A program made the translations under genes and the position numbers. The notes beneath the pieces were generated by a model, which made no database searches, had not been told where the DNA came from, and worked only from the letters and a program-made list of their open reading frames with translations. Source: Haloprofundus halobius (GTDB taxonomy: Archaea > Halobacteriota > Halobacteria > Halobacteriales > Haloferacaceae). Taken from it: 64,000 nucleotides of DNA. The stretch covers positions 124,001-188,000 of the forward strand of contig NZ_CP083667.1 of assembly GCF_020097835.1 (NCBI RefSeq), in the 5' to 3' direction. Shown here one piece after another: positions 46,795 through 63,984 of the stretch (position 1 is the stretch's first letter; every line of letters begins with the position of its first letter).

Positions 46795-46849
46795 CCGCCG
46801 TCGGCGACGCAGCGAGCGCCTCCCGACGAAGAATTCGAGAACCGCGACG

Positions 46850-47962
46850 TCAGTCGTCCGCCGGTGCCGACTCGGAGTCGTCGCCTGCGCCGCTGGCCGT
46901 GACGTCGTCCGCTCGACGGCTGCCCTCCAGTTCCTCGTAGGGGTCATACCCCTCGGCGCTCTCGTAGAGGTGACAGGCGATATCCTGGTCGACGTCGACG
47001 TCTACCTTCTGTTCGAGCGGCGGGACGACTTGGTCACAGACGTCGCCGATGTAGTCCGGACAGCGCGATTTGAACCGACACCCGGTCGGAATCTCGATGA
47101 CGTCGCCCACCTCGCCCTGTAGCTCGACACGCTCGCGACCCACGTCCGGGTCGGGGACCGGAACCGCGTTGATGAGCGCCTGCGTGTAGGGGTGCTGAGG
47201 GTTCTCGATGATCTGGTCGGTCGGCCCCTTCTCGACGATCTTGCCCATGTACATGATGGCGAGACGGTCGCACATATGCCGGAGCAAGGAGAGGTCGTGG
47301 CTGATGTAGACGACCGAGAGACCGAACTCCTCGGTCATCCGGTTGAGCAGCGACAGCACTCCCGCTCTGAGGCTCACGTCGAGCATCGACACCGGTTCGT
47401 CGGCGACGATGAAGTCCGGGTCGAGGACGAGCGCCCGCGCGATGGCGACGCGCTGACGCTGCCCGCCCGACAGTTCGTGCGGGTACTGGTCGTAGTACTG
47501 CTCGGGGGGTTGGAGCTCCGCGAACTCCAGCGCGCGCTGGACCCGCGCCGTCTCGTTTCTGATGTCGTGGATGCGGAGCGGTTCGGCGATGATGTCGTAC
47601 ACCGTCATCCGGGGGTTGAGACTCTCGAAGGGGTCCTGAAAGATCATCTGGGCGTTCTGTCTGAACTCCTTGAGTTCCTCGTCTGTGGCCTCCGAGAGCT
47701 CCTTGTCGTTGTAGACGATGTCGCCGTCGGTCGGCTCGTGGAGCTTCACCAGCGACATCCCCGTCGTGGTCTTCCCGCAGCCGGACTCGCCCGCCAACCC
47801 GAGCGTCTCGCCCTTGTGGAGATTGAAACTGACGCCGTCGACCGCGTGGACGTAGTCGGGTTCGTCGCCGGAGACCGACTGCATCAGACTCGCTATCCAG
47901 CCCTGATTGACCTTGAAATGCTTCTTGAGGTCGTCGACTTCTAGAAGCACGTCGTCTCGCAT
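46850..47962 (-). CDS. dppF: peptide ABC transporter ATPase, DppF type
   Basis: Protein of 370 aa. Walker [11 protein letters not shown]-loop [13 protein letters not shown], signature LSGGQRQRV, Walker [14 protein letters not shown]-terminal [18 protein letters not shown] 47962 was chosen; it begins 1 nt after the stop of the DppD-type gene (TGAGATG). The C terminus has a charged tail (Asp/Glu rich). Second ATPase of the operon 52759-46850. Confidence 0.93.
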
Positions 47963-47963
47963 C

Positions 47964-49010
47964 TCAGTCACCCCCGGCGTTCCCGACGTTCTGGGCCGCG
48001 GCGGTCTGTTTCCACGTCCTCGCGTCGTCGGCGTACGGCCGCAGTTCCGCGTCTACCTCGTCGGCGTAGTGGCAGTACGACCGAAGGTTGTTCACGTAGT
48101 GCGCTTCGGGCTCTTCCTCCCGACAGCGGTCGGTCGCCATCGGACACCGCTCGGCGAACCGACAGCCCTGCGGCGGGTCGACGAGCTCCGGCGGGTAGCC
48201 CGCGATGGAGAGCAGGTCCTGGTCCTCCATCCGGATGTTGGGGAACGCCCGCTTCAGCCCGATGGTGTAGGGGTGGTACGGCTGGTTGAATATCTCGTCG
48301 ACCGGCCCCTCCTCGGCTACCTGACCGGCATACATCACGAGGACGCGGTCGCACGTCTCGGCGACGACGCTCACGTCGTGAGTGATGACCAGCATCGAGG
48401 AGTTGATCTCGTCTTGGATCGAACGGATGCGCTTGAGAATCTGGTCCTGCATGATGACGTCGAGCGCCGTCGTCGGTTCGTCGGCCAACACCAGCGACGG
48501 GTCGAGCGCGAGCGCCATCGCGATCATCGCGCGCTGGCGCATCCCGCCGGAGAACTGGTGCGGGTAGTCGTCGGCGCGGTCGGGGTCCAGACCCACGAGT
48601 TCGAACATCTCGGTGACGATCTCGTTCGACTCGACCCGACCCGTTCCCGGCCGATGGGTCTCGATGGCCTCGACGATCTGCTCGCGGATGGTGTACACCG
48701 GGTCCAGCGAGTTCATCGCAGATTGGGCGATCATCGATATCTCCTCCCACTTCAGACGGCGGCGCTCGGGGCCGGAGAGTTCGGTGAGGTCGTCGCCTTT
48801 GAACTCGATGCTGCCGTTGTTGACGTAGCCGGCGTCCGGGAGGATGCCGATTATCGCCTTCGCGAGCGTGGTCTTGCCGCAACCGGACTCGCCGACGATG
48901 CCGAGGTTCTCGCCCTCTTCGAGTTCGAACGAGACGCCGTCGACCGCCTGTGCGGGGCCGTCTTCGGTTTCGTAGTACACTTCGAGGTCTTCGACTTCGA
49001 GTAGACTCAT
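47964..49010 (-). CDS. dppD: peptide ABC transporter ATPase, DppD type
   Basis: Protein of 348 aa. Walker [10 protein letters not shown], signature [12 protein letters not shown], Walker [14 protein letters not shown]-terminal [14 protein letters not shown]. Its ATG overlaps the permease stop by 4 nt (ATGA), showing translational coupling. The ATP-binding partner follows directly. Confidence 0.93.
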
Positions 49011-49990
49011 TGTAGCTTGGGGTTGGTTATCTCTTCGTAGCCGCGGCCGATGAGGAAGCCGCTGATCACGAGCAGTCCGATGCAGATACCCGGCGGCACG
49101 AACCACCACCACGCGCCGAACTGGAGCGCGGAGTACGCCCGCGACGCCTGGAGCATCGTGCCCCACGAGACGGTGTTCGGGTCGCCGAGGCCGATGAACG
49201 AGACGCCCGCCTCCGCGAGGATGGCCCACGCGATGCCGAACGAGCCGTAGAGGAACGTCAGCGGCAACACGTTGGGCGCGAGATGCCTGCTGATGATGTG
49301 CCAATCGCCCGCGCCGGCGACCTGAGCGGCCTTCACGAACGGCCGTTCGCGGAGCGAGAGCGCCTGCGAGCGGATGACCCGGGCGGTCGAGCGCCACTGG
49401 AGGACGATCAGCGCGAAGATGATGTTCCAGAGGTTCGGCCCCAGCACCGCGACGAGCACGATGACCGTCGGCAAAAGCGGCATCCCGTACAGGAAGTCGA
49501 CCAGTCGCATCAGCGCGTCGTCGACCTTCCCGCCGTAGTAGCCCGCGACGAGACCGACCAGCGTCCCGATACCGGCGGTGAACACCGCCGCGATGAGTCC
49601 GACCATCAGCGCCGCTCGCGTGCCGTAGACGAGTTGGCTGAAGATGTCGAACCCCTCGGCGGTGGTGCCGAGGATGTAGGGCGTGTCCGCGCCGAGAATC
49701 GACGGTTCGGCCCACTTCTCGATGATGATCTCGGAGTCGGTCTGGTACTGTCGCTTGAGCGGCTGGTGGGTCGCGATGAACGGCGCGAAGATGGCGACGA
49801 GGACGAACCCCGCCACTGTGAGAAGCGAGAGCTTCACCGAGAGTTCGTCGGTGAGCTTCGCCCAGTGTTCTCGGAGCGTCTCGCGCCACAGGCGGGCCGT
49901 CCGCTGCCACTTGTTTATCTGCTCGTCGGACGAGCCGGTGTCGTCGAGGTCGGCGAATATCGACCGGGTAGTGTGTTCTTCTTGAGCCAT
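49007..49990 (-). CDS. dppC: peptide ABC transporter permease, DppC type
   Basis: Protein of 327 aa with a long soluble N terminus (about 50 residues), then six hydrophobic segments. Diagnostic motif LGTTAEGFDIFSQLVYG and EAA loop (ERPFVKAAQVAGAGDWHII). Start 4 nt downstream of the first permease stop. Confidence 0.93.
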   Translation of the reverse strand: MAQEEHTTRSIFADLDDTGSSDEQINKWQRTARLWRETLREHWAKLTDELSVKLSLLTVAGFVLVAIFAPFIATHQPLKRQYQTDSEIIIEKWAEPSILGADTPYILGTTAEGFDIFSQLVYGTRAALMVGLIAAVFTAGIGTLVGLVAGYYGGKVDDALMRLVDFLYGMPLLPTVIVLVAVLGPNLWNIIFALIVLQWRSTARVIRSQALSLRERPFVKAAQVAGAGDWHIISRHLAPNVLPLTFLYGSFGIAWAILAEAGVSFIGLGDPNTVSWGTMLQASRAYSALQFGAWWWFVPPGICIGLLVISGFLIGRGYEEITNPKLQ

Positions 49991-49994
49991 TGGT

Positions 49995-50972
49995 CTAGTC
50001 GTACGTCACCCGCGGGTCGAGGTAGCCGTACGCGAGGTCGGCCAGGAAGTTCAGGAAGATGATGGTCGCCGCGAGAACCATGAACGTCCCCTGTGCGACG
50101 GGGAAGTCCCGCCGGAGCACCGCTCGCACCATCTCCCGACCGATGCCGGGCCACGCGAACACCGTCTCGATGAGGACGCTCCCGCCGACGGCGTAGCCGA
50201 GGGCGATGGCCGCCGCCGTGACGATGGGCAACAGCGCGTTCCGCGCGGCGTGTCTGAACATTATCGTCCGCTCCTTCAGCCCCTTGGCGCGGCAGACGTC
50301 GATGAAGTCCTCAGAGAGCACTTCGAGCATGCTCGAACGCATGATGAGAAGTGGGTAGCCCATGAAGTAGAAGCCGAGCACCAGCGCCGGTGCCAGCAGG
50401 TGGTGCAGGAAGTCCACCGTCAACACCATCTGCCAGAAGCTCGCGTTCTGCGTACCGAGGCTGGTCATCCCGCTCATCGGGATGACGCCGAGGTTCGCCC
50501 CGAATATCCACAGGACGATGAGCCCGACGTAGAACGTCGGGACGCTCCGGGCGGTCAGCGCGACGATGACCGCGTTCTTCTCGAACCTGGAGCCGCGGTA
50601 CCAGCCGGACAGCACGCCGAGCGTGATACCGATGGCGTACGCCGTGATGAACGCCGTCAGCATGAGCACGAGCGTGTTCGGCAGGTAGGTCGCGATGACG
50701 TCCGTCACCGGCTGGTTCGAGTGGAACGACTGGCCGAACTGCAGCGTCGCTAAATTCTCGAGAAACTTGACGTACTGCACGTGCAGCGGCTGGTCGAGGC
50801 CGTAGCTCGCGATGATCTGTTCACGCGCCTCCTGTGTCATCTGTGAGGAGACGACGTACGACGTCGGATCGCCCGGCATGAGCCGAAACAGTCCGAACAG
50901 GACCGTCCCGACCGCCCAGAGCGTCACGACGAGCTGTAGTACGCGTCTGATGACGAAACTCGCTTTTCCCAT
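49995..50972 (-). CDS. dppB: peptide ABC transporter permease, DppB type
   Basis: Protein of 325 aa. First helix VVTLWAVGTVLFGLFRLMPGD, EAA loop (EDFIDVCRAKGLKERTIMF), six helices. Usual N terminus MGKASFVIRRVLQL. Upstream is the binding protein gene 51047-52759 with a 74-nt gap. Confidence 0.93.
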   Translation of the reverse strand: MGKASFVIRRVLQLVVTLWAVGTVLFGLFRLMPGDPTSYVVSSQMTQEAREQIIASYGLDQPLHVQYVKFLENLATLQFGQSFHSNQPVTDVIATYLPNTLVLMLTAFITAYAIGITLGVLSGWYRGSRFEKNAVIVALTARSVPTFYVGLIVLWIFGANLGVIPMSGMTSLGTQNASFWQMVLTVDFLHHLLAPALVLGFYFMGYPLLIMRSSMLEVLSEDFIDVCRAKGLKERTIMFRHAARNALLPIVTAAAIALGYAVGGSVLIETVFAWPGIGREMVRAVLRRDFPVAQGTFMVLAATIIFLNFLADLAYGYLDPRVTYD

Positions 50973-51046
50973 GATATATGTCGTATCTGTATCGTGTTTA
51001 CCGCCGATTTACGTGGAAATTCCGTATCGAAGTCGGTTCTCTCCGC

Positions 51047-52759
51047 TCAGTCGTCGCTCGGCGCCTGGAGCATGTCGTTGTCGTCCCACGTGTAGCCGGC
51101 CTCTTCGAGTCGGCTCCGCGCGGCGTCCCGGCTCTCCTCGTACTCCGTCACGTCCTCGGTGTGGAGCGGCCCGAACGCCGACGAGACGACGTTGAACCCT
51201 GGTTCGGGGAAGCCGAACAGGACCTGGTCGACGATGGGCGTCCGCGGGATGGTCTCGACTAGCGCCTTCCGCAACTGCACGTCGTCGAGGCGCTCTTCGC
51301 GCTCGTTGGGCGTGAACATCCAGAACGTCGGCGCGGTCTGGAACGTCGTCCCGATGTTCTCGTTGTCCTGATTCTGATCGAGGCTGCGGTCGATGCGGCC
51401 GAACGGCTCGTAGTTGAGATCGCCGTTGATGAGATTCTCCCACACCGTCGACGCCTCGGGGATGACGCGCCAGAACCGCTTCTCGAAGGAGACGGGCGCG
51501 AAGTGCTCGTCGAACTTCGTCATCCCGAACTCGCTGCCCTGTTCCCAGTAGTCGAACATCATCGGTCCGCTCCCGACGGGCTCATCGATGTTCGCCTGAC
51601 TCGGGTCCTCGCGGTCGGCCCACTTGTGTTCGGGGATGATGGGGATGAGGTTCGCGACCGCGAGGTTGAACGGACCGAGCGGCTCGGACATGTTGATGCG
51701 AACCGTCTCCTCGTCGACGGCCTCCGCGGTGTCGATGTACTCGGCTTGCGTTGAGTACAGCGGCACCTCGTTCTCGGTGACGTAGTTGTACGTGAACGCG
51801 ACGTCCTCGGCGGTGAGGTCCTCGCCGTCGTGCCACGAGTGGTCGGTGCGAATGGTGTACTCCATCGTGGTCTCGTCGACGCGGTTCCAGTCCGTCGCGA
51901 GGCTGACCTCCGGGTCGGGTTCGCCCTCGTTGTTGAGCTGGACGAGGAAGTCGTACAGCATGTTGAACTGGTAGACGTGCTTGCTCTCGTCGTTGTGACC
52001 GAGCACGTTCATCGTCGAGAGCGTCTCGGGCCAGTACCCCTTCAGGGTGTCCTCGCCGCCCTTCATCTCCAGGTTGATCATCGTCCAGTAGGAGTTGAAG
52101 CCGTTCGCGAGGTCCGCCTGCCAGTTGCCCACCTGATTGCTGTTGTAGATGGCCGCCTGCGGCATCTGCGTGATGGGCATCATCGGAACGTCGTCCATCA
52201 GCGTTTTCTGAATCTCGTGGGCCTGGTCGATCCGGGTGTCGGGGTCCGGTTCGGCCAGATAGCTCGACATCATCTCGTCGAGGTCCGGGTTCTCGTAGCC
52301 AGAGTAGTTACCTTCGCCGGGGTCGGTGTTTCCGGAGTTGAACAGGTTGTTCAGTTCCGTCACCGGTTCGGAGACGAAGAACGTGTGCCACGTCGCGAAA
52401 CTGTAGTCGTACTCTTCGGACACCCTACTGAACAGGGTCCCCCACTCGAGTACGTCCACCTCCATGTCCAGTCCGAGTTCGCTGAACTGGTCGGCGACGA
52501 GGTTTATCGCGTCGTGTCTCGGCGGGTTGTAGCTCTGGGCGTTGTTGACGTAGGTGTACGTCGACAGCCCCTCGCCCGCGCTGGCACCGCCGCCGTCACC
52601 GCCACTCTGGTTTCCACTCCCGTTTCCGCTCCCGTTTCCGCCGTCGCCGCCGTCCTGGTTGCCGGAACACCCGGCTAAGGCCGTCATCCCCGCGACACCG
52701 CCCGCAGTCGCCGCTTTCAGAAATCTCCGACGCTTCACACGATTGGTATCCTCTGGCAT
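51047..52759 (-). CDS. dppA: peptide ABC transporter substrate-binding lipoprotein (SBP_bac_5)
   Basis: Protein of 570 aa. Tat lipoprotein signal KRRRFLKAATAGGVAGMTALAGC, then a Gly/Asn/Asp linker and the family 5 fold (EYTIRTDHSWHDGEDLTAEDV, GSGPMMFDYW, LRKALVETIPRTP). ATG 52759 begins the signal; a TATA-like agatatttatg (minus strand, about 52783-52793) gives leaderless spacing. The order binding protein, two permeases, two ATPases is a complete Dpp operon. Downstream neighbours (peptidases, deacylases) suggest peptide or amino-acid-derivative uptake. Confidence 0.92.
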   Translation of the reverse strand: MPEDTNRVKRRRFLKAATAGGVAGMTALAGCSGNQDGGDGGNGSGNGSGNQSGGDGGGASAGEGLSTYTYVNNAQSYNPPRHDAINLVADQFSELGLDMEVDVLEWGTLFSRVSEEYDYSFATWHTFFVSEPVTELNNLFNSGNTDPGEGNYSGYENPDLDEMMSSYLAEPDPDTRIDQAHEIQKTLMDDVPMMPITQMPQAAIYNSNQVGNWQADLANGFNSYWTMINLEMKGGEDTLKGYWPETLSTMNVLGHNDESKHVYQFNMLYDFLVQLNNEGEPDPEVSLATDWNRVDETTMEYTIRTDHSWHDGEDLTAEDVAFTYNYVTENEVPLYSTQAEYIDTAEAVDEETVRINMSEPLGPFNLAVANLIPIIPEHKWADREDPSQANIDEPVGSGPMMFDYWEQGSEFGMTKFDEHFAPVSFEKRFWRVIPEASTVWENLINGDLNYEPFGRIDRSLDQNQDNENIGTTFQTAPTFWMFTPNEREERLDDVQLRKALVETIPRTPIVDQVLFGFPEPGFNVVSSAFGPLHTEDVTEYEESRDAARSRLEEAGYTWDDNDMLQAPSDD

Positions 52760-52959
52760 GTTATTAGCTATCCCCAACCACCACATAAATATCTTTCCAC
52801 GTGTTCTGTCGTTTGGACAAGGAGACCGGGGATGTACATGATTAACTCGATACCGTTTGTCCTACGCAGCGTAAATTTGTCGAGCTTTTGCGCCCTTTCG
52901 GCGTCGGGATCGGATAGAAACCAGAAGACTATTGAGATGCGATATCACACCCCAGTTAG

Positions 52960-54339
52960 ATGACCGAACTACCAGACTCAGTCGTGGGCGACGCCTACCG
53001 GAGCACGGTCGGGTGGGACCTCCTGGCCGAGTTGGCGGATCTGAACGACCGGATGCCGGGACACGAGGGTGAACGAGTCGGGGCGGACCTCGTGGCCGAG
53101 GCGTTCGAGGACGCCGACCTCGACGACGTCTCCCTCGACGAGTTTCCCATCCCCGCGTGGTGGCGCGGCGACGCGAGTCTCACCGTTGCGCACGGCGACC
53201 GCGAGACGACGTTCGCCCGGTCGCACGAACTCGTCGAGTTGCCGGGAACGCCCTCGGGCGAGGTGACGGGCGAACTCGTCGACATGGGCTACGGCCTGCC
53301 CGAGGAGTTCGAGGACGTGGACCTCTCCGGCGACATCGCAATGGCGTCAAGTCTCACCCCCGACGACTACGGGCGGTGGGTCCACCGCTCGGAGAAGTAT
53401 CACTACGCCGCCGAGTCCGGCGCTGCGGCGTTCGTCTTCTACAACCACATCGAGGGGGCACTGCCGCCGACCGGCAACATCGGCAGCGTCAACGGGCCGG
53501 GACCGATTCCGGCCGTCGGCGTGAGCAAGGAGACCGGTGCGCGACTCCAGCGCTACTGCGACGCCGGCACCGTCGAAGCCGACCTCTCGGTCGAGTCCGA
53601 AGTCGGCCGCGGCACGTCACACAACATCGAAGCGACGGTCGGCCCCGACTCCGACGAGGAGGTGCTGTTCACGGCGCACGTCGACGGCCACGACGTGGGG
53701 ACCGCCGCCAACGACAACGGGTTCGGCACCGCCATGGTCGTCGAAGTCGGAAAGATGCTGGCACAGGTCGCAGACGAGTTGGAGACGAAAGTCCGACTCG
53801 TCGTCTTCGGTGCCGAAGAGACCGGCCTGTACGGGTCGTACTACTGGAGCCATACCCACGACCTAGAGAACGTGAAGTGCATCGTCAACGTCGACGGCGC
53901 GGGCTACTCGCGGAACCTCGAAGTCCACACTCACGGTTTCGAGGCGATAGCCGACGCCTTCGACGCCGTCGGCGACGAGTACGAGATCCCCGTCCACACC
54001 GAAGACGGAATCCGACCGAACAGCGACCACTGGCCGTTCGTCCAGCGCGGCGTCGCGGGCGCTCAAGGCCGTTCCTCCTCTGACGGAAGCGGCCGCGGGT
54101 GGGGTCACACCCACGGCGACACGTTCGACAAACTCGACGTGCGAGACCTGCGTGACATGTCGATTCTCTGCGCCGCGGGCGTCGCGCGACTCGCCCGAAG
54201 CGACATCGAGGTCGACCACGTCGACGACGAGGAGATAAAACAGGCGTGTCTGGACGAAGGCTTCGACGTCGGAATGAAGGCGACGGACGCGTGGCCGTGG
54301 GGCGGACCGAAGGACTGGCCCTGGGCGGACGAACTGTAA
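52960..54339 (+). CDS. M28-family zinc aminopeptidase-like protein
   Basis: Protein of 459 aa. Catalytic dizinc motif residues: His in FTAHVDGHDVG, Asp in ANDNGFGTAM, Glu-Glu in FGAEETGLYGSYYW, Asp in CIVNVDGAGY, and His in WGHTHGDTFDKLD. A PA-like insertion (LVDMGYGLPEEFEDVDLSG to FYNHIEGALPPTG) precedes the catalytic part. No signal peptide. It is divergent from the dpp operon and probably processes imported peptides. ATG 52960 is the first in-frame start. Confidence 0.9.
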   Translation: MTELPDSVVGDAYRSTVGWDLLAELADLNDRMPGHEGERVGADLVAEAFEDADLDDVSLDEFPIPAWWRGDASLTVAHGDRETTFARSHELVELPGTPSGEVTGELVDMGYGLPEEFEDVDLSGDIAMASSLTPDDYGRWVHRSEKYHYAAESGAAAFVFYNHIEGALPPTGNIGSVNGPGPIPAVGVSKETGARLQRYCDAGTVEADLSVESEVGRGTSHNIEATVGPDSDEEVLFTAHVDGHDVGTAANDNGFGTAMVVEVGKMLAQVADELETKVRLVVFGAEETGLYGSYYWSHTHDLENVKCIVNVDGAGYSRNLEVHTHGFEAIADAFDAVGDEYEIPVHTEDGIRPNSDHWPFVQRGVAGAQGRSSSDGSGRGWGHTHGDTFDKLDVRDLRDMSILCAAGVARLARSDIEVDHVDDEEIKQACLDEGFDVGMKATDAWPWGGPKDWPWADEL

Positions 54340-54462
54340 CTCTCGGTTCGACAGCCTCGGTGGAAGATGTCTCCGCGACCCGACTCGCGGCCTCGGGTCG
54401 TCGACTCCCGAGCGAAGCGTACACACAATCCGTATTTAACGTACACAAAAAAGTTATACAGT

Positions 54463-54475: not shown

Positions 54476-54494
54476 GACAACGCGAGACGTTGTC
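54476..54494. promoter_or_regulatory. perfect palindrome abutting the M24-fold start codon
   Basis: GACAACG-cgaga-CGTTGTC, perfect 7-5-7 arms, ending one base before ATG 54495. It covers the likely transcription start, so a protein bound here would block initiation; or in a leadered mRNA it would fold as a hairpin. Confidence 0.55.
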
Positions 54495-55673
54495 ATGGCT
54501 CAAGCGGTGTTCGATACAGCGGAGTACGACCGACGAATCGCCCGGACGAAAGCGCGGATGGAGGAGGAGGGATTGGACGCCGCCGTCGTCAGCGACCCGG
54601 CGAACATGAACTATCTCACCGGCTACGACGGATGGTCGTTCTACGTCCACCAGGCGGTCATTCTCACGCCGGACCGCGACGAACCCATCTGGGTCGGCCG
54701 CCAGATGGACGCGACGGGTGCGCGCGCGACGACGCAACTCGCAGAGGAGAGCATCCGTCCGTACAGCGACGACCACGTCCAGTCGCCGCGTGACCTCCAC
54801 CCGATGGACTTCTTCGCGGATGTGCTCTCGGACCTCGGCGTCGACGACGGCCGAATCGGCCTGGAGATGGACGCGTACTACTTCACCGCGAAGTCCTACA
54901 CGCGCCTGCAGAACAACCTCCCCGAGGCCGACTTCGAGGACATCACGCTGCTCGTCAACTGGGTGCGCGTGAAGAAGTCGGAGGCCGAACTGGAGTACAT
55001 GGAGCAGGCCGCCCGCATCTCCGAGAACGCGATGCAGGCCGGCCTCGACGCCATCGGCGAGGGCGTCCCCGAGTACGAGGCGGCCGAGGCCATCTACTCG
55101 GCGCTCATCGACGGGACCGACGAGTACGGCGGCGACTACCCGGCTATCGTCCCGCTGATGCCCTCGGGCGACTACACCGGGACGCCGCATCTGACGTGGA
55201 CCGACCGTCCCTTCCGGAACGGCGACCCGGTGCTCATCGAACTGTCGGGCTGTCGACACCGTTACCACTCGCCGCTCGCGCGGACGACGTTCGTCGGCGA
55301 TCCGTCCGAGGAGATAGAGGAGACCGCCGAGATAGTCGTCGAGGGGATGGAAGCCGCACTCGACGCCGCCGAACCCGGCGTCACCGCCGAACGGGTCGAG
55401 AAGGCGTGGCGCGACACCATCGCGAAGTACGGCGTCGAGAAGGCCGACCGCATCGGCTACTCGATGGGGCTGGGCTACCCGCCGGACTGGGGCGAGCACA
55501 CCGCGAGTCTCCGTCCCGGCGACGAGACGGTGTTGGAGGAGAACATGACGTTCCACACCATTCCCGGCCTCTGGTTCGACGACTTCGGCGTCGAACTCAG
55601 CGAGACGTTCCGCGTCACCGCCACCGGTGCCGAACCGCTCGCCGACTTCCCCCGACGGCTGTTCACCGCCTGA
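54495..55673 (+). CDS. M24-fold hydrolase of the ectoine-hydrolase (DoeA)/creatinase type, metal ligands lost
   Basis: Protein of 392 aa with an N-terminal creatinase domain and a pita-bread C-terminal domain. The five M24 metal ligands are altered: the first Asp is Glu249 and the second Pro260 (VLIELSGCRHRYHSPLART); His is replaced in YSMGLGYPPDWGEH; the two Glu positions read Ile and Ser (FHTIPGLWFD, GVELSETFRVT). This pattern fits metal-free creatinase/DoeA-type enzymes; GYSxGLGYPPDWGE is what I recall of ectoine hydrolase. It would hydrolyse a cyclic amidine or amide rather than act as an Xaa-Pro peptidase. ATG 54495 begins the family sequence. Confidence 0.78.
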   Translation: MAQAVFDTAEYDRRIARTKARMEEEGLDAAVVSDPANMNYLTGYDGWSFYVHQAVILTPDRDEPIWVGRQMDATGARATTQLAEESIRPYSDDHVQSPRDLHPMDFFADVLSDLGVDDGRIGLEMDAYYFTAKSYTRLQNNLPEADFEDITLLVNWVRVKKSEAELEYMEQAARISENAMQAGLDAIGEGVPEYEAAEAIYSALIDGTDEYGGDYPAIVPLMPSGDYTGTPHLTWTDRPFRNGDPVLIELSGCRHRYHSPLARTTFVGDPSEEIEETAEIVVEGMEAALDAAEPGVTAERVEKAWRDTIAKYGVEKADRIGYSMGLGYPPDWGEHTASLRPGDETVLEENMTFHTIPGLWFDDFGVELSETFRVTATGAEPLADFPRRLFTA

Positions 55674-55727: not shown

Positions 55728-56978
55728 ATGACCGACACCGAATCGACGCTGTCGAACGCTCGCCGACAACTCGAACGCGCGGCCGCTAACGTCGACATCG
55801 ACTCAGGTATCGTCGAACGGCTGAAACACCCGACTCGCGTTCAGCAGGTTTCTGTCCCGCTTCGGCGCGACGACGGTACGCTGGAGGTGTACACCGGTTT
55901 CCGCGCCCAGCACGACGACGTCCGCGGTCCCTACAAGGGCGGACTTCGCTACCACCCCGAAGTCAACGCCGAGGAGTGTATCGGCCTGTCGATGTGGATG
56001 ACGTGGAAGTGCGCCGTGATGGACCTCCCCTTCGGTGGCGGGAAGGGCGGTGTCGCAGTCGACCCGAAGACGCTCTCTGAGACGGAGCGTGAGCGACTCA
56101 CGCGGCGCTTCGCCGAGGAGATACGCGCCGCCATCGGACCGAAGAAGGACGTTCCCGCGCCCGACATGGGGACGGACTCGCAGACGATGGCGTGGTTCAT
56201 GGACGCCTACTCGATGCAGGAGGGCGAGACCATCCCCGGCGTCGTCACCGGCAAACCGCCGTCAGTCGGCGGGTCGCACGGTCGCGAGGAAGCGCCCGGC
56301 CGGAGCGTCGCCATCATCACGCGCGAGGCCATCGACTACTACGACTGGGACATCGAGGAGACGACCGTCGCCGTACAGGGGTTCGGTAGCGTCGGCGCGA
56401 ACGCGGCGCGCCTCCTCGACGAGTGGGGCGCGAAAATCGTCGCCGTCAGCGACGTCGACGGCGCGATATACGACCCCGACGGACTCGACACGAACGACGT
56501 CGAAAGTCACGACGAACGCCCGGGGATGGTCTCGGGGTACGACGCACCGGAGACGCTGACGAACGCCGAACTGTTCGAACTCGATGTCGACGTTCTCGTT
56601 CCGGCCGCCGTCAGCAACGTCATCACCGCCGACAACGTCGACGACGTGCAAGCGGAGATGATCGTCGAGGGCGCGAACGGACCGACGACGTTCGCCGCCG
56701 ACACGGTTCTCGAAGAGCGCGGCGTCCCGGTGATTCCGGACATCCTCGCGAACGCCGGCGGCGTCACCGTCTCGTACTTCGAGTGGTTGCAGGACATCAA
56801 CCGCCGGACGTGGCCGCTCGACAGAGTCCACGAGGAACTCGAACAGGAGATGCTGAAGGCGTGGAACGCCGTCCGCGCCGAAGTCGATGAGCGCGACCTG
56901 TCGTGGCGTGACGCCGCCTACGCGGTGGCGCTCTCGCGCATCGGCGAAGCGAAGGAGACGCGGGGACTGTGGCCCTGA
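55728..56978 (+). CDS. gdhA: NAD(P)-dependent glutamate dehydrogenase, paralogue 2
   Basis: Protein of 416 aa. [38 protein letters not shown] and [15 protein letters not shown], as in the paralogue at 3679-4980. The two are similar over most of their length; the first has a longer N terminus. ATG 55728 is 54 nt after the M24-fold gene stop, so it may share its transcript. Symbol choice is uncertain. Confidence 0.93.
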
Positions 56979-57032: not shown

Positions 57033-60000
57033 TCAGCGCCCCAGCGCCTCGGCGACTTTCTCGATTGGGTGCGGCGGCTCCGAAGCCGACGCCCCCCGGT
57101 CACCGAGTTGCGTGCGGCACGACGCGCCGGGAGCGACGACGACGTCGCCGTCGCTGTCGTCGATTTGGTCATACAGAACGCGGGCGATGGCTCTGCTCAT
57201 CGAGTAGTGTTCGGCCTCGTAGCCGAAACTGCCCGCCATTCCACAACAGCCCGAATCCAGCGGGTCGACCTCGTAGCCCGTCCGCCGGAGCACGCCGACG
57301 GCGTGGTGGTCCTTCCGCGTCGCCTTCTGGTGGCAGTGGCCGTGGTAGGTCAGCGACTCGGCGGGCGCAGAGAACGAGAGCGCCTCGTCGAGTCGGAACG
57401 CGTCGAGATACTCCATCACCCCGTAGGTGTTGGCCGCGACGGCTTCGACGTCCGCGACGGAGCTGTCGTTCGACGCCTGTGACCCGCCCAACAGGTCGAG
57501 GTAGTCCGACTGGAGCATCACCGCGTCCGACGGTTCGACGAGGACGACGTCCCAGCCATCCGCGACGCGGGGGGAGAGCGCCGCCACGTTCGTCTCGGCT
57601 CGTTCCCGCGAGCGGTCGAGAAAGCCCTTCGAGTGGGCGGGTCGGCCGGTCGAGGTGACGCCGTCGGGGAGCGCGACGTGGACGCCCGCGGCTTCGAGCA
57701 CGCGGACGGCCGCTTTCCCCGCCTCGGGGTGGTTGTAGTTCGTGTACGTGTCCGGGAAGAGCAGCACCCTCCGGTCGGCCGACGACGCCGGAACTCGGGA
57801 GCCGCCGCGCTCGTCGAACCAGTCGACGAACGTCTCGCGGTGGAACGTCGGCAGCGACCGCTCTCGCGCGATGCCGACGGTCTTCTCCATGAGCGTCCGC
57901 GCGCCCGGAAGCTTCGGTGCGAAGTTCGAGACGGGCGCGAGCACCGACCCGAGGGCGTTGAGTCGGTCGACTTCGGCAAACAGCCGGTCGCGGAGGCTCG
58001 CGCCGTGGCGCTCGTGGTGAGCGTGTTCGATCTCGGCTTTGAGTTTCGCCATGTCGACTTCGCTCGGACAGTCGCGCGCACAGCCCTTACAGCCGACGCA
58101 GAGGTCGACGATTTCGCGCATAAACTCGACGTCGTGGCTCTCCTCGGAGAGGTCGCCGCTCATCGCCTGTCGGAGCATGTTCGCGCGACCCCGCGTCGAG
58201 AGGCTCTCTTCCTCGGCGGCGCGGTAGGTCGGACACATCACCCCGCCCGTCGTGTCCTGGTTTCCGCGACAGCCCCCGCAGCCGTGACAGAGCTCGGCCA
58301 TTCCCTGAAAGCCGTTCGCGTTCTCCCACTCGAGCGTGGGTTCGAAGTCGGGGTCGAACTCGTACTCGGGCGAGAGGCGGAGGTTCTCGGTCATCGAGAC
58401 GACGCTCGCCCGCGAGGGGACGTCCGCCGGGACGGTCTCGGACTCGGCGTAGCCGCAGACCTGTCCGGGGTTCAACAGCCAGTTGGGGTCGAACGCGGTC
58501 TTCACCTCGCGGAACGCGTCCCAGAGACGGTCGCCGTACAACTTGCGGTTCCACTGGGAGCGCGCGCGGCCGTCGCCGTGCTCGCCCGACACCGACCCGC
58601 CGAACTCGACGACGAACTCCGTCACCGCGTCGGCGATGGTCTCGAACGCCTCCAGTCCCTCGGCGGTCTTCGTGTCGACGAGCGGGCGGACGTGGAGAAC
58701 GCCCGGCCCGGCGTGGGCGTAGAAACTCGTGTTCGCGTCGTACTCGTCGATGACATCGCGGAACCGGTCGACGTACTCCGGGAGTCGCTCGGCGGGGACC
58801 GCGCAGTCCTCGATGAACGAGATGTGCTTCTCGTCGGTCGTCCGCGACAGCAGGATCGGTGCGGCCGCCTTCCGCATCTTCCAGAGTCCGGCGCGCTCCT
58901 CGGCGTCGTGGGCCTCCAGCGCCGCGAACGCGCGGGCGTCGTCGGCGAGTTCGATTCCCGCAGACGGCGTCGCCTCGGGCGTCGCTGACGGTACCCGCGC
59001 GGCGAGGAGGTCTGCGACCTGCTGGCGACCGTCCGCCTCGGAGTCGGCGTAGAACTCGACGAGGAGCGCGCCGCGCGTCCCGTCGGGGAGCGACGCGGCG
59101 ACGTCGCGGAACTCGGCGGTCTCCAGCGCGAGGTCGATGAGCACGTCGTCGATGAGTTCGACGGCGGCGGGGCCGTGGTCGAGGATGGGCGCGACGTCCG
59201 CGGCGGCGTCGTACACGTCCTCGTACGTGAGGAGCGCGACGGCTTTCGTCTCGGGAATCGGTTCGAGCGACACCGTGGCTTCGGTGACGATTGCGAGCGT
59301 CCCCTCGCTCCCGGCGAGTAGGCGCGCGAGGTTGACCGTCCCGGCCTCGCTGTCGGGGTCGATGCCGGAATCGTCGGCCATCCGCCGCTCGCCGCGCGCC
59401 TCGTCGACGAGCATGTCGAGATTGTACCCCGAGACGTTTCGCTTGAGGTCCGGGTAGCGCGCGTCGATCTCGTCGGCTTCCTCGTCGAGGATGCGGACGA
59501 CCTCGGCGTAAATCCGGGGCAGGAGGTCGCTTACCGGTCCAGAGTCGCCCCAACGGTCTGAATCGGGGTCGGCCTTCTCGCGGAGTTCGTCGACAGACAT
59601 CTCGCCGAACGTCGTCACGGTGCCGTCGGCGAGAACGACCTCCGCCTCCTCGACGTAGTAGTCGGTCTTGCCGTACTGCAGCGAGTGCGCGCCCGTCGAG
59701 TTGTTGCCGATGGCGCCGCCGAGGACGCTCCGATTGCCCGCCGCTGGGTCGGGCGCGAATTTGAGGTCGTGTGGGGCGGCACGTTCGTTCAGGTCCGCGA
59801 GGATCGTTCCGGCCTGTGCGGTCGCGCTCTCCTCCTCGGCGTCGACCTCGACGACGGCGTCCATGTAGCGACTGAAGTCGAGGACGACCGCTTCGTTGAC
59901 GGCTTGTCCGGCGAGACTGGTGCCGCCGCCACGAGGGAGGACGGGAATCTCTCGCCGTGCGCAGTAGTCGACGACAGTCGCCACGTCGTCGGTCGACGTC

Positions 60001-60248
60001 GGGAAGACGACGCCGATGGGGACGACCTCGTAGGCGGAGGCGTCGGTCGCGTACAGCTGGCGCGTGTACTCGTCGAAGCGCACGTCACCGTCGACGCGCG
60101 CTTCGAGGTCGCGGACGACGCCCGAGCGGGCGACCTCGCCGCCGACGTAGTCGTACGCCGCACGCGGGTCGGCGGAAGGGTCGGACGCGGTAGAGTCGGC
60201 TAAGGAGTCTGTCGTGGTCGGGTCGTCCGAGGGGTCTGTCGCGGTCAT
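57033..60248 (-). CDS. FAD-linked D-lactate/glycolate-type dehydrogenase fused to Fe-S/CCG domains
   Basis: Protein of 1071 aa: GlcD-like FAD domain (PRGGGTSLAGQ at 105-115, AGNRSVLGGAIGNNSTGAHS), oxidase C-terminal domain (YAHAGPGVLHVRP, GEHGDGRARS), then Fe-S cysteine clusters (CHGCGGCRGN near 650, CVGCKGCARDCPSEVD near 716) and cysteine-rich CCG sequence (SGCCGMAGSFGYEAEHYS near 1000). The fusion resembles bacterial Dld-II/GlcD-GlpC-type membrane-quinone dehydrogenases of D-lactate, D-2-hydroxyglutarate or glycolate. ATG 60248 starts the low-complexity Thr/Ser/Asp leader; the gene ends 8 nt before the D-2-hydroxyacid dehydrogenase stop. The two probably share an operon. Electron acceptor unknown. 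Confidence 0.9.
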   Translation of the reverse strand: MTATDPSDDPTTTDSLADSTASDPSADPRAAYDYVGGEVARSGVVRDLEARVDGDVRFDEYTRQLYATDASAYEVVPIGVVFPTSTDDVATVVDYCARREIPVLPRGGGTSLAGQAVNEAVVLDFSRYMDAVVEVDAEEESATAQAGTILADLNERAAPHDLKFAPDPAAGNRSVLGGAIGNNSTGAHSLQYGKTDYYVEEAEVVLADGTVTTFGEMSVDELREKADPDSDRWGDSGPVSDLLPRIYAEVVRILDEEADEIDARYPDLKRNVSGYNLDMLVDEARGERRMADDSGIDPDSEAGTVNLARLLAGSEGTLAIVTEATVSLEPIPETKAVALLTYEDVYDAAADVAPILDHGPAAVELIDDVLIDLALETAEFRDVAASLPDGTRGALLVEFYADSEADGRQQVADLLAARVPSATPEATPSAGIELADDARAFAALEAHDAEERAGLWKMRKAAAPILLSRTTDEKHISFIEDCAVPAERLPEYVDRFRDVIDEYDANTSFYAHAGPGVLHVRPLVDTKTAEGLEAFETIADAVTEFVVEFGGSVSGEHGDGRARSQWNRKLYGDRLWDAFREVKTAFDPNWLLNPGQVCGYAESETVPADVPSRASVVSMTENLRLSPEYEFDPDFEPTLEWENANGFQGMAELCHGCGGCRGNQDTTGGVMCPTYRAAEEESLSTRGRANMLRQAMSGDLSEESHDVEFMREIVDLCVGCKGCARDCPSEVDMAKLKAEIEHAHHERHGASLRDRLFAEVDRLNALGSVLAPVSNFAPKLPGARTLMEKTVGIARERSLPTFHRETFVDWFDERGGSRVPASSADRRVLLFPDTYTNYNHPEAGKAAVRVLEAAGVHVALPDGVTSTGRPAHSKGFLDRSRERAETNVAALSPRVADGWDVVLVEPSDAVMLQSDYLDLLGGSQASNDSSVADVEAVAANTYGVMEYLDAFRLDEALSFSAPAESLTYHGHCHQKATRKDHHAVGVLRRTGYEVDPLDSGCCGMAGSFGYEAEHYSMSRAIARVLYDQIDDSDGDVVVAPGASCRTQLGDRGASASEPPHPIEKVAEALGR

Positions 60249-60256: not shown

Positions 60257-61228
60257 TCAGGCCGACTCCGGCGCGAGCAGTTGGTTCGCCAGTTCCTCGC
60301 CCGCGTCGAGGCGGCCGACGTTCTCGGTGACGATGGCGGCGAGTCGGTCCCAGTGTTTCGGCGTGTGACCGCCCGTGTGTGGCGTGATGTGGCAGTTTTC
60401 GAGGTCCCAAAGCGGATGGTCGGCCGGCAGCGGCTCGGGGTCGGTCACGTCCAGCGCCGCGCCGCGAATCTTGTTCCACCGGAGTGCCGAGACGAGCGCG
60501 TCGGTGTCGACGATGCCGCCGCGAGCGGTGTTGACGAGCACCGCGTCGGGTCGCATCGTCGCGAACTCCTCGTCACCGATGAGGCCGCGGGTCAGGTCGT
60601 TGAGCGGGCAGGCGAGGACGACGTACTCGCTGCGCGAGAGCGCGTCGTGGATGGCGTCCTCGTCGAATCCAACGACCTCGTCGGTTGGCCCGCCCTTCTC
60701 GGGCGTGTAGCGGACGCCGATGGTGTCGACCTCGAACCCCTGTAGGCGCTGGACGAGCGCCTCGCCGATGGAGCCGAGACCGACGACGGTGACCGTGCTG
60801 CCGGAGAACTCGTGCGACTGGAAGTGCCGCCACTCCGAGCGCTGCTTCCGTCGCCACCCCTCGTGGAGTCGACGGGTGAAGGTGAGCATGTTGCCGATGG
60901 CCTGCTCGGCGATGCCCGGTGCGTGGATGCCGCCCGCGTTGGTGACGGCGACGCCGCGGTCGGCGAGCGCGCCCATCGGCAGGTGGTCGGTGCCGGCGAA
61001 CGTGCAGGCGAACAGTTCGAGGCGCTCGGCGCGCGCGAGCAGTTCCTCGTCGAGGCTGATGCCGGTGACGACTCGCGCCTCGGCGATGAGTTCGCGCTCC
61101 TGTTTCGGCGTTCGGGCGAGCGCGACCGTCCGGTCGGGGAGGCGTTCGCGCAACAGTTCGGCGTACGGTTCCATCGAGAGTCCTTCCGTCCCCTCGCGGA
61201 GGACGACGACGTCGGGATTGGTGGTCAT
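60257..61228 (-). CDS. D-2-hydroxyacid dehydrogenase
   Basis: Protein of 323 aa. NAD motif VVGLGSIGEALVQRL and the catalytic triad Arg (NTARGG), Glu (DPEPLPADHP) and His (TPHTGGHTP). The D-isomer family oxidises or reduces D-lactate, glycerate, glyoxylate or 2-keto acids. The Fe-S oxidase follows 8 nt downstream on the same strand, suggesting one pathway for D-2-hydroxy acids. Substrate unresolved. Confidence 0.92.
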   Translation of the reverse strand: MTTNPDVVVLREGTEGLSMEPYAELLRERLPDRTVALARTPKQERELIAEARVVTGISLDEELLARAERLELFACTFAGTDHLPMGALADRGVAVTNAGGIHAPGIAEQAIGNMLTFTRRLHEGWRRKQRSEWRHFQSHEFSGSTVTVVGLGSIGEALVQRLQGFEVDTIGVRYTPEKGGPTDEVVGFDEDAIHDALSRSEYVVLACPLNDLTRGLIGDEEFATMRPDAVLVNTARGGIVDTDALVSALRWNKIRGAALDVTDPEPLPADHPLWDLENCHITPHTGGHTPKHWDRLAAIVTENVGRLDAGEELANQLLAPESA

Positions 61229-61420: not shown

Positions 61421-62710
61421 ATGGCCGAGCCGATACGAGCGCGACTGAGCGAGTTGCGACGACACCTCCACCGGTATCCGGAACCCGGGTGGTGCGAGTT
61501 CCAGACGACCGCCTGGCTGGTCGAGGAACTCCGGGCCATCGGCGTCGACGAACTCGCGGTCGGACCGGAGGCGTACGACCCCGACGACCGGATGGCTGTC
61601 CCAGCCGAGGATCGCGTCGAAGCGTGGTACCAACGCGCCCGCGAGCGTGGCGTGGACGACGATCTCCTCGAGAAGATGGCGGGCGGCAACACGGGAGCTG
61701 TCGCCGTCCTCGACCGCGGTGAGGGACCGACCGTCGGCCTCCGCGTCGACATCGACGGGCTGTTCATCGAGGAGTCCGACGGCGACGACCACGTCCCGGC
61801 GGCCGAGGGATTCCGCTCGGAGACCGGCGAGACGATGCACGCCTGCGGTCACGACGCGCACATGACCTGGGGGCTCGCCACGCTAGAGGCCATACAAGAT
61901 AGCGAGTTCGCCGGCCGACTCGTGGTGTTCTTCCAGCCTGCAGAGGAGGTCTCCGGCGGCGGTTGTCCGATGGCCGAAAGCGAGTACGCCGAGGGGCTCG
62001 ACTACTTCTTCGCCGTCCACGTCGGCCTCGACCACCCCACGGGAGAAGTCGTCGCCGGCATCGAGCGCCCGCTGGCGATGTGTCACGTCGACGTCGATAT
62101 AGAGGGAACCTCCGCACACGCCGGGAAAGCGCCGCAGGACGGCGACAACGCCATCCAGGCGCTCGGCACCGCCATCCAGAACGTCTACGGCATCCCGCGG
62201 CACGCCGACGGGATGACCCGCGTCAACGTCGGCCGCGTCGAGGGCGGCACGGCGAGCAACGTCATCGCCGAGGACGTCGGGGCCGTCGCCGAGGCCCGCG
62301 GCGAGACGACGGAACTCATGGAGTACGCGAAGCAAGCGCTCACGCAGACGTTCGAGACGGCCGCCGAGATGCACGGCTGCGAGGCCGACGTCACCATCGT
62401 GAGCGAGAGTCCCCGCGCCGACAGCGACCCCGAACTCGTCGACGTCGTCGCCGGCGTCGCCCGCGGCGTCGACGGCGTCGACACCGTCGTCCCCACCGCC
62501 GACTTCGGCGCGAGCGAGGACGCGACGTTCCTCATGCAGCGCGTCCAGTGGGAGGGGGGCCTCGCGTCCTACCTCATCGTCGGCACCGACCATCCGACGA
62601 GCCACCACACGCCGACCTTCGACGTCGACGAGCGTAGCCTCGACACCGGCGTCGAACTGCTCACGGAGGCGATCCTCGCCGTCTCGGACGACGGGGTGGA
62701 CGAACCGTGA
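61421..62710 (+). CDS. M20-family amidohydrolase/peptidase
   Basis: Protein of 429 aa. Metal-binding HACGHDAHM (residues about 140-148), FFQPAEEVSGGG, and the dimerisation domain (SAHAGKAPQDGDNAIQAL). It hydrolyses N-acyl amino acids or carboxypeptidase-type amide bonds in the cytoplasm. Divergent from the dehydrogenase pair by 192 nt. The stop overlaps the GTG of the threonine ammonia-lyase gene, so both are co-transcribed. Confidence 0.92.
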   Translation: MAEPIRARLSELRRHLHRYPEPGWCEFQTTAWLVEELRAIGVDELAVGPEAYDPDDRMAVPAEDRVEAWYQRARERGVDDDLLEKMAGGNTGAVAVLDRGEGPTVGLRVDIDGLFIEESDGDDHVPAAEGFRSETGETMHACGHDAHMTWGLATLEAIQDSEFAGRLVVFFQPAEEVSGGGCPMAESEYAEGLDYFFAVHVGLDHPTGEVVAGIERPLAMCHVDVDIEGTSAHAGKAPQDGDNAIQALGTAIQNVYGIPRHADGMTRVNVGRVEGGTASNVIAEDVGAVAEARGETTELMEYAKQALTQTFETAAEMHGCEADVTIVSESPRADSDPELVDVVAGVARGVDGVDTVVPTADFGASEDATFLMQRVQWEGGLASYLIVGTDHPTSHHTPTFDVDERSLDTGVELLTEAILAVSDDGVDEP

Positions 62711-63984
62711 GTCCGTCGTCGGACGTCTCGGACGAGATACCGACGGCCGACGAAGTCGTCACCGTCGAGGACGTGGAGGCCGCCCGCGAGCGCCTCGCGG
62801 ACGTCGTCCACCGGACGCCTCTCGACGGGTCGACGACATTCGCCGAGCGCAGCGGGGCCGCCGCCGTGGGTCTCAAACTCGAGAACGTTCAGCGGACGGG
62901 GTCGTTCAAGATTCGCGGCGCGTACAACGCGATGGCTCAGCTCTCGGCGGAGGCGCGCGAACGCGGCGTCGTCGCCGCTAGTGCCGGCAACCACGCACAG
63001 GGTGTCGCGCTCGCCGGGGGGTTGCTCGATATCGACGCCACCATCGTCGTTCCGGAGGTGACACCGGCGGCGAAAATCGACGCGACGCGCGGCTACGGGG
63101 CCGAGGTCGTCGTCGAGGGCGGCGACTACGAACGCTCCTACGAGCACGCGCTGGAACTCGCAGACGAGGAGGAACTGGCGTTCGTCCACCCGTTCGACGA
63201 CGAGCACGTCATCGCCGGCCAGGGAACCGTCGGCCTCGAACTGTTCGAACAGGACCCCGACGTGGACACGGTGCTCGTCTCCATCGGCGGGGGCGGCCTC
63301 ATCTCGGGCATCGCGACGGCTGCGAAAGCCCACGACCCGAGTATCCGCGTCGTCGGCGTCCAACCCGAGGGGGCGGCCCACGCCAAACCCTCGCTCGTAG
63401 GCGACGAGATTCACGTGCTCTCGAACGTCGATACCGTCGCCGAGGGTATCGCCGACGCCCGGCTGCTGGAGAAGACGTTCGCCGTCGTTCGCGAGCGCGT
63501 CGACGACGTTGTCTCGGTGAGCGACGCCGACATCGCCGTCGCGACGGCGTTACTCGCCGAGCGGGCGAAGACCGTCGCCGAAGCGGCGGGCGCAGCCCCG
63601 GTCGCAGCGTTGCTCTCGGGAGCCGTCGACGTCGAGGGTGAACGCGTCGCGGCCGTCGTCTCCGGCGGTAACGCCAACCTCACGGACCACGCCGAACTCT
63701 GTCGAGTGGGTCTCGAACGAATCGGGCGCTACGCCGAGGCCCGCCTCGAACTCGCCCGGTGGCCGACGGTTCTCGGCGATGTGACCGATGTCGTCGAGGA
63801 ACGGGGTGCGGAACTCGACACGCTCGAACGCGCCCGACGGACGGCGGCCGACGACCTCAACCGGACGCCGGTCCGCGTCGGCGTCGAGGGGAGCGGTCCC
63901 GACCACCTCCGCGACGCGCTGGCCGCGCTCGATGCGCTGGACGGCGTGAGCGTCGTGAGAAACAGCCTCGACACGGAGACGTAG
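62707..63984 (+). CDS. ilvA: threonine ammonia-lyase (threonine dehydratase)
   Basis: Protein of 425 aa. PLP Lys in TGSFKIRGAYN, GGGGLISG phosphate loop, SAGNHAQGVAL, and a C-terminal ACT-like tail (RVGVEGSGPDHLRDAL), usual for biosynthetic or catabolic enzymes. It makes 2-oxobutanoate and ammonia from threonine. Start GTG 62707 overlaps the M20 stop in GTGA. Relatives act on other hydroxyamino acids, including the EutB branch; the ACT tail argues for the usual threonine enzyme. Confidence 0.9.
   Translation: MSPSSDVSDEIPTADEVVTVEDVEAARERLADVVHRTPLDGSTTFAERSGAAAVGLKLENVQRTGSFKIRGAYNAMAQLSAEARERGVVAASAGNHAQGVALAGGLLDIDATIVVPEVTPAAKIDATRGYGAEVVVEGGDYERSYEHALELADEEELAFVHPFDDEHVIAGQGTVGLELFEQDPDVDTVLVSIGGGGLISGIATAAKAHDPSIRVVGVQPEGAAHAKPSLVGDEIHVLSNVDTVAEGIADARLLEKTFAVVRERVDDVVSVSDADIAVATALLAERAKTVAEAAGAAPVAALLSGAVDVEGERVAAVVSGGNANLTDHAELCRVGLERIGRYAEARLELARWPTVLGDVTDVVEERGAELDTLERARRTAADDLNRTPVRVGVEGSGPDHLRDALAALDALDGVSVVRNSLDTET

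Follow-up and report, generated by a model that had tools for sequence, protein, structure and literature searches.

Ectoine is a common salt-stress protectant. Bacteria of salty habitats produce ectoines, and haloarchaea often dominate such habitats. Haloarchaea have long been left out of the ectoine consumers; in the passages cited here, a 2018 review restricts these to Proteobacteria (PMC5924519). A study of April 2026 describes in its main text more than 100 archaeal EutD homologues and putative ectoine clusters in Halobacteria, which it terms provisional (PMC13188858). According to the same text, these clusters contain aminopeptidase, aminotransferase and BCCT genes and are conserved between genera, and the Halobacteria EutD homologues are >55% identical to a Bacillus EutD. 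They are very probably the same clusters as those analyzed here, and the core idea, that of haloarchaeal ectoine clusters, is already known from the main text of that publication, which (supplement aside) nowhere uses the terms hydroxyacid, M20, IclR, glutamate dehydrogenase or threonine. In the open-licence literature we found no further report of archaeal ectoine use, and none of the operator, the IclR control or the co-inheritance with an M20 gene presented below.

Among described systems, DoeA/EutD of Halomonas elongata (6twj, 6twk and 6yo9) has the same fold, length, replaced metal ligands and first-position Glu as the haloarchaeal protein studied here and is 45% identical to it over the full length; the haloarchaeal protein differs in scoring under the DoeA cut-off, in having no adjoining DoeB and in its archaeal host. 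The alphaproteobacterial eut-doe clusters (Ensifer, Paracoccus, Leisingera) share the logic of hydrolase, deacetylase, transaminase and dehydratase, but use DoeB where an M20 protein is found here, EutB instead of an ACT-type lyase, and EhuABCD or TRAP import. EnuR controls them, according to the cited part of PMC8739950, whereas IclR genes were seen near the haloarchaeal clusters and an Lrp/AsnC gene near that of Natrialba. In the Bacillota cluster eutBCD-atf-abgB-thrA-adh (main text of PMC13188858; Priestia pBMV_1) an M20/AbgB-type amidohydrolase replaces DoeB, as here, and the M20 gene beside doeA is already in print there as abgB. The Priestia DoeA homologue, encoded between EutB and EutC-like genes, likewise falls under the DoeA cut-off (530.9 bits). 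The EutC-like gene, PucR and homoserine dehydrogenase of the Bacillota cluster have no annotated counterpart in the five haloarchaeal stretches compared, and among these stretches Natrialba alone has a possible counterpart of its aldehyde dehydrogenase, at a distance of about 10 kb from doeA.

We analyzed a window of 64,000 nucleotides of Haloprofundus halobius, which lies on a 422.8-kb contig (C2) of a 3.95-Mb genome. It holds a doeA-like gene and part of a cluster that continues beyond the window end (Table 1). We read these genes, with a probability of about 0.78, as a haloarchaeal ectoine-degradation cluster that joins a DoeA-like ectoine hydrolase, an M20 amidohydrolase and control through an operator and an IclR regulator, and that would probably let the archaeon use ectoine from its surroundings. 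Matches to doeA at E 1e-50 occur in 37% of the 391 genomes sampled from the class (144 genomes) and in 41 of 86 genera, which would be the spread of the key gene if the cluster works as proposed. A role would then also follow for genes whose present labels are 'M24 family metallopeptidase', 'amidohydrolase' and 'threonine ammonia-lyase'.

Table 1. Features of the cluster and its surroundings, in window coordinates or, where marked C2, in contig coordinates
Feature	Position	Strand	Evidence or remark
AstE-like gene	45742-46794		
Dpp-type importer	46850-52786		
Conserved operator region, two 17-mers	54420-54458	+	weight matrix, other genera
7-5-7 palindrome, noted earlier, judged a chance feature	54476-54494	.	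present, unconserved
doeA-like gene, DoeA/EutD-like ectoine hydrolase homologue, metal-free M24 fold, 392 aa	54495-55673	+	profile, PDB, tree, residues
GdhB-type glutamate dehydrogenase, directly downstream of doeA	55728-56978	+	NF041398, 780.9 bits (cut-off 620)
FAD- and Fe-S-binding D-2-hydroxyacid-type dehydrogenase (YdiJ/GlcD-GlpC-like fusion), assumed start	57033-60248	-	NF049975, 502.6 bits, below cut-off (1350)
D-2-hydroxyacid dehydrogenase, divergent from M20 gene	60257-61228	-	Pfam PF02826
M20 amidohydrolase, proposed N-acetyl-diaminobutyrate deacetylase in DoeB's place	61421-62710	+	TIGR01891, above cut-off
Threonine-ammonia-lyase-like PLP enzyme, candidate EutB counterpart	62707-63984	+	TIGR01127; overlaps M20 gene by 4 bases
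AT3, first class III aminotransferase	C2:188069-189427		
BCCT transporter	C2:189580-191208		
234-aa protein gene	C2:191709-192413		
Rid	C2:192438-192824		
DabaAT, second class III aminotransferase	C2:192897-194288		
Aldehyde ferredoxin oxidoreductase	C2: about 194384-196045		Pfam
IclR regulator, cluster end	C2:196118-196918		Pfam

The first-pass annotation had proposed an M24-fold hydrolase without metal, akin to ectoine hydrolase, and an M20 deacylase close by, an idea that our sequence comparisons largely support. The protein has Creatinase_N and Peptidase_M24 domains, and its highest NCBIfam score is to DoeA (TIGR02993, 472.9 bits; 472.7 in the genome search), ahead of DoeA_2 (243.4) and the archaeal prolidase PepQ (108.3); it stays below the cut-off of 613 for the DoeA equivalog. 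In a PDB sequence search the first molecule was DoeA (6twk, H. elongata EutD, 385 bits) and the next a prolidase (112.5 bits). An AlphaFold2 model built from 11 haloarchaeal rows has a mean pLDDT of 84.6 and a pTM of 0.83, with residues 216-225 and 317-330 below 50 pLDDT, the latter segment holding one ligand position. Based on Foldseek, the model is closest to H. elongata EutD (6twk_A, E 8.6e-43, TM 0.86/0.85, 45% identity), followed by Xaa-Pro peptidases (2.7e-26) and then creatinases.

All five M24 metal ligand positions are altered, as had been noted from the sequence: the columns D, D, H, E and E read E249, P260, Y322, I356 and S369, with the Glu, Pro and Tyr that mark the first three positions of DoeA/EutD. 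The same five residues stand in 52 of 52 rows of type A, the common haloarchaeal type, and all eight bacterial DoeA rows read E, P, Y, M/I and T/S. The complete D-D-H-E-E set is present in three of the seven other M24 proteins of the genome (L001-L003). Counted along the PDB-search alignment, E249 occupies the column of Glu255 in 6twk, the EutD residue that reportedly, from the work of Mais et al. in 2020, bears the covalent intermediate.

In a tree of 75 rows, from which characterised creatinases were left out, one clade of 63 (support 96/97) unites 54 haloarchaeal copies, the window's own and the eight bacterial DoeA. The window protein thus belongs to the broad DoeA/EutD clade, apart from other M24 proteins, and is not placed among metal-dependent prolidases, the placement that would have refuted the first-pass annotation. 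As drawn, with a midpoint root and long outgroup branches, bacterial DoeA is nested among the haloarchaeal copies, so that transfer may have gone either way. The nearest named relatives are from Haloprofundus (94-98% identity), and in an evenly spaced 60 of the 1112 matching plasmid records bacterial entries drop from 58-45% identity directly to 34% or less. From these comparisons we conclude that the gene encodes a real, metal-free haloarchaeal DoeA/EutD-type protein in a conserved cluster.

The surroundings of doeA were compared in 54 stretches of up to 20 kb each, picked for genus spread (51 with type A and 3 with a second type, B). Neighbours were counted by tblastn at >45% identity, and the counts are lower bounds because the stretches end about 9.4 kb from doeA. 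Clustering gave lower numbers for some genes (27 versus 37 for the lyase, for example). By tblastn at least 45 of the 54 loci have the M20 gene, 44 the D-2-hydroxyacid dehydrogenase, 37 the lyase, 35 AT3, 27 BCCT, 20 GdhB, 20 the 234-aa family, 19 the FAD/Fe-S dehydrogenase, 19 DabaAT and 10 Rid. The aldehyde ferredoxin oxidoreductase family lies between doeA and DabaAT at five loci, and 13 IclR-type genes are spread over 11. Annotated plasmids of Haloprofundus, Halorussus and Halomarina have the same gene order, which Natrialba and Haladaptatus keep in part. The 234-aa haloarchaeal protein (e.g. L103:15710-16414), situated between BCCT and Rid, is conserved and has no Pfam match.

DoeA and the cluster-type M20 protein are nearly always inherited together. 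Across the 391 genomes both are present in 140, DoeA only in 4, M20 only in 1 and neither in 246 (Fisher test, p ~1e-100, uncorrected for kinship), at an M20 threshold of E 1e-163 that was set after the scores and the DoeA carriers were known and sits in a narrow gap from 2.5e-160 to 2.3e-164. At 1e-170 the numbers, counted by hand, are 137, 7, 1 and 246. A widespread M20 paralogue lies below the threshold (273 of 391 genomes match at E 1e-140), and one of the DoeA-only genomes (G039) carries a sub-threshold M20 gene near doeA that is 62% identical (L081). In four genomes doeA is located apart, in the closest case by 14 kb and in the farthest on a different contig. All four still have M20 and the lyase beside the D-2-hydroxyacid dehydrogenase, with AT3 near it in three and BCCT in two.

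The association extends to bacteria. In Sinorhizobium meliloti M270 a DoeA-like gene that comes after ehuBACD, the genes of the ectoine importer, is directly followed by an M20 gene, and in four of six Bacillota loci (Priestia, Rossellomorea, Aquibacillus and Anaerobacillus) M20 is one or two genes downstream of doeA; the stretches examined of Gracilibacillus and Oceanobacillus contain none. The M20 residues expected to be catalytic or metal-binding (C142, H144, E176, H200 and H396) are kept in 46 of 46 rows. Based on this co-inheritance, the conserved residues and the placement beside doeA in bacteria, we assign the putative deacetylase step to the M20 protein. Its closest PDB entry is an aminobenzoyl-glutamate utilisation protein, and it is only weakly similar to DoeB2 (NF038260, 96.8 of 550 bits). 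A DoeB equivalog was not found in the genome, where the best TIGR02994 score is 106.7 of 402.7 bits, at a different locus. The EutD-EutE bimodule of the bacterial cluster definition in the cited part of PMC8739950 is therefore absent, as no DoeB adjoins the doeA-like gene. A search for ectoine synthase gave no match in this genome, but none in the control genomes either.

From the homologies, the conserved residues, the conservation of cluster and operator and the co-inheritance, we infer the following route, including its substrates, order of steps, import and regulator. The BCCT carrier, whose best score is to the betaine carrier family but below the cut-off (443.7 of 650), would import the solute. 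The DoeA-like enzyme, with Glu249 where EutD has Glu255, would need no metal to open the tetrahydropyrimidine ring of ectoine; the product would be N-alpha-acetyl-diaminobutyrate, and 5-hydroxyectoine is the probable second substrate of the enzyme. The M20 amidohydrolase, replacing DoeB/EutE, would remove the acetyl group, and a class III aminotransferase may pass an amino group of diaminobutyrate to 2-oxoglutarate. The candidate is DabaAT, which scores 406.3 bits against the diaminobutyrate family (cut-off 671) versus 417.7 against the general acetylornithine-type family; the EctB score is higher for a gene elsewhere (C2:44141). GdhB would recycle the glutamate and release ammonium. The oxidation of aspartate semialdehyde to aspartate would fall to the aldehyde ferredoxin oxidoreductase, if not to another aldehyde dehydrogenase.

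The threonine-ammonia-lyase-like enzyme and Rid are assigned, as candidates, to a hydroxylated branch. The lyase is above the cut-off of its own family (TIGR01127, 393 bits versus 378.75) and 37-40% identical to three EutB, and its score against EutB hydroxyectoine dehydratase (TIGR02991, 243.3 bits versus 413.35) rules it out as EutB proper. According to the cited part of PMC8739950, bacterial EutD also opens hydroxyectoine, EutABC (of unknown activities) are needed for hydroxyectoine use, and hydroxy-diaminobutyrate is apparently turned fast into diaminobutyrate. By analogy, the lyase, Rid and an aminotransferase could carry out the same conversion of hydroxy-diaminobutyrate in haloarchaea.

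Among the most constant partners is the D-2-hydroxyacid dehydrogenase, for which the known ectoine route offers no step, and this counts against our reading. The nearest solved structure to this enzyme by sequence is also a D-2-hydroxyacid dehydrogenase (5mh5). As a pathway marker it proved unspecific, with matches at E 1e-110 in 328 of 391 genomes. In 14 DoeA-less stretches, from 15 genomes picked by eye for a strong match to this dehydrogenase and without G362, it occurs without lyase, aminotransferase and BCCT in all 14 and without M20 in 13. One locus (L139, genome G161) has the pair of D-2-hydroxyacid and FAD/Fe-S dehydrogenases in the absence of doeA, and perhaps represents a D-hydroxyacid shuttle that was recruited to the cluster. 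In Oceanobacillus piezotolerans (L193) an aminotransferase, DoeA, a D-2-hydroxyacid dehydrogenase homologue (29%) and an aldehyde dehydrogenase follow in a row, which is an independent link of this dehydrogenase to DoeA.

The unexplained dehydrogenase also fits a different proposal, namely that the DoeA-fold hydrolase has shifted from ectoine to a small cyclic amidine or N-acyl amino acid of some other kind, while the logic of M20 and aminotransferase was kept. The missed DoeA cut-off (472.9 of 613) points in the same direction, as does type B, a second haloarchaeal DoeA-like type that is 55-57% identical (three copies read: L083:9440-10606, L084:9443-10609 and L085:9416-10714). The cluster M20 is present at none of the three type B loci. 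Found there instead are an FAD oxidoreductase of the DAO family, as scanned in L085, an importer of either the BCCT or the ABC kind, and IclR genes. All three type B rows differ at W47, H52, D331 and G333, positions that we guess line the pocket. The changes suggest that type B acts on another substrate, and together with its different genes they imply that substrate shifts may happen in the DoeA family. Type A, in contrast, retains all four residues, has 92 positions (conserved in at least 96% of 52 type-A rows) in common with eight of eight bacterial DoeA rows, and is separated from the latter by two fixed differences alone. We therefore consider a shift of substrate in type A unlikely.

Within the use of ectoines, a route from 5-hydroxyectoine through 4-amino-2-oxobutanoate, D-2-hydroxy-4-aminobutanoate and D-malate to oxaloacetate, as one TACACA-N5-TGTGTA/IclR regulon, would if true give every conserved enzyme a step. 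After ring opening and deacetylation, the lyase with Rid would convert hydroxy-diaminobutyrate to 4-amino-2-oxobutanoate, which the D-2-hydroxyacid dehydrogenase would reduce to D-2-hydroxy-4-aminobutanoate. D-malate would arise from this product through a class III aminotransferase and the aldehyde ferredoxin oxidoreductase, and would be oxidised to oxaloacetate by the FAD/Fe-S dehydrogenase. To our knowledge no bacterium has such a route, and we regard it as a long shot.

In the proposed ectoine-degradation cluster, one palindromic operator, TACACA-N5-TGTGTA, recurs at several promoters. The first-pass annotation had placed an operator on the perfect 7-5-7 palindrome directly before doeA (arms 54476-54482 and 54488-54494). 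The palindrome exists, but it is at chance level. The window contains 16 palindromes of this form, 16 of 2000 random 60-base stretches have one (114 of 2000 with 7-base arms and a spacer of 3-8), and the perfect form is absent from the four congeners examined, where L043 retains 6-base arms and L044-L046 do not. Within the genus the right arm, by the start codon, persists and the left arm is variable. Since it is unconserved, we reject it as the operator.

Further upstream, a TACACA/ATCTGT element is common to other genera. A pattern drawn from it has 21 matches in 1.07 Mb, 16 of them upstream of doeA, which is circular, and 5 upstream of the D-2-hydroxyacid dehydrogenase, which is not, with none elsewhere. 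A first weight matrix was built on AT3 promoters, using 24 sites from 35 loci. At a score of 15 it returned 135 sites: 23 at AT3, 43 at doeA, 20 at the D-2-hydroxyacid dehydrogenase/M20, 19 at the 234-aa gene, 7 at BCCT, 8 at DabaAT or Rid (of which doeA shares two and the lyase one) and 15 elsewhere. As a control, a matrix was made from 18 cleaned AT3 sites and AT3 promoters were excluded from the count. With it the 17-base operator was found in 61 of 159 cluster promoters versus 3 of 398 regions upstream of other genes. The AT-rich regions among the latter gave 3 of 99, and 200 column-permuted matrices reached a mean of 0.2 and a maximum of 2 of the 159. By promoter the rates are 24/54 for doeA, 14/44 for the D-2-hydroxyacid dehydrogenase, 6/26 for BCCT, 4/16 for DabaAT and 13/19 for the 234-aa gene, the most frequent carrier; most single promoters are thus under the threshold score.

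At doeA itself the element consists of two 17-mers, TACACACAATCCGTATT (54420-54436, score 14.3) and TACACAAAAAAGTTATA (54442-54458, score 21.9), the second overlapping a TATA-like stretch. Judged by sequence, this region just upstream is a better operator candidate than the 7-5-7 palindrome. This genome has further sites: one at AT3 (24.3), one in front of the 234-aa gene (22.8) and one in the interval that separates DabaAT from the oxidoreductase (18.9). Between the D-2-hydroxyacid dehydrogenase and M20 in the window the weight matrix gave no site >11.7, and two window sites (17.0 and 15.6) near 43.4-43.6 kb precede no known cluster gene, which speaks against a clean regulon. The IclR regulator, from its position at the cluster end, probably reads the operator. 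The operator offers a direct and cheap test, and the regulon and the substitute enzymes make the ectoine idea testable.

The genes upstream of doeA in the window (42199-54339) encode an LLM-class oxidoreductase, a TldD-like protein, the AstE-like protein, the Dpp importer and an M28 aminopeptidase, and are probably a separate peptide-use cluster. The M20, AstE-like and Dpp-type genes had all been taken at first as possible parts of one system; all are present, and only M20 stays with doeA across genera. The AstE-like gene is found at one of the 54 loci and the Dpp substrate-binding protein at three, all congeneric, so neither appears to belong to the system; the congener L043 has doeA without them, and in two more congeners, L044 and L046, the stretch does not reach the place where AstE would be expected. 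The Dpp importer was accordingly rejected as a conserved part, with reservations for L091, where M28 (52%) and DppB-F (33-51% identity) are near doeA, and for Halomarina sp. BND7, with a Dpp-like ABC importer annotated 5-12 kb upstream. High identity beside doeA is otherwise confined to the same genus. As DoeB, the AstE-like gene is rejected on its score (63.4 of 402.7 bits), its distance of about 8 kb and its lack of conservation beside doeA. That the doeA-like gene, the AstE-like deacylase, M28 and the Dpp importer form one system for the breakdown of peptides or acyl-amino acids, as their proximity (within 9 kb upstream of doeA) and these two distant loci might suggest, is in view of such counts very improbable.

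Creatinase activity, the conversion of creatine to sarcosine and urea, was another early suggestion. The fold is the same and Foldseek matches 7yto and 1chm, but with 67.7 bits for 1chm versus 385 for DoeA in the PDB search, and 7.5e-24 at best versus 8.6e-43 for EutD by structure, creatine is disfavoured as the substrate and a creatinase hardly credible. A metal-dependent Xaa-Pro dipeptidase, as the public annotation 'M24 family metallopeptidase' would have it, can be dismissed for practical purposes, given the five replaced ligands in every type-A row and the separation from ligand-keeping paralogues in the tree.

Ligands are also replaced in further M24 proteins at L110, L111 and L113, which have 29-34% identity to the window protein; those of L113 and L111 are encoded next to or near M20 genes and that of L110 near an aminotransferase and an aldehyde dehydrogenase, and they are possibly a third kind. 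In Natrialba magadii, about 7-13 kb upstream of doeA (L099:1010-7241), two aminotransferases, a methylmalonate-semialdehyde dehydrogenase, an Lrp/AsnC gene and another M20 are possibly a second part of the pathway. The window also holds an F420-related group at 40623-43185, in which a CofC-like gene (Pfam), an NpdG F420 reductase and an LLM-class oxidoreductase are found together.
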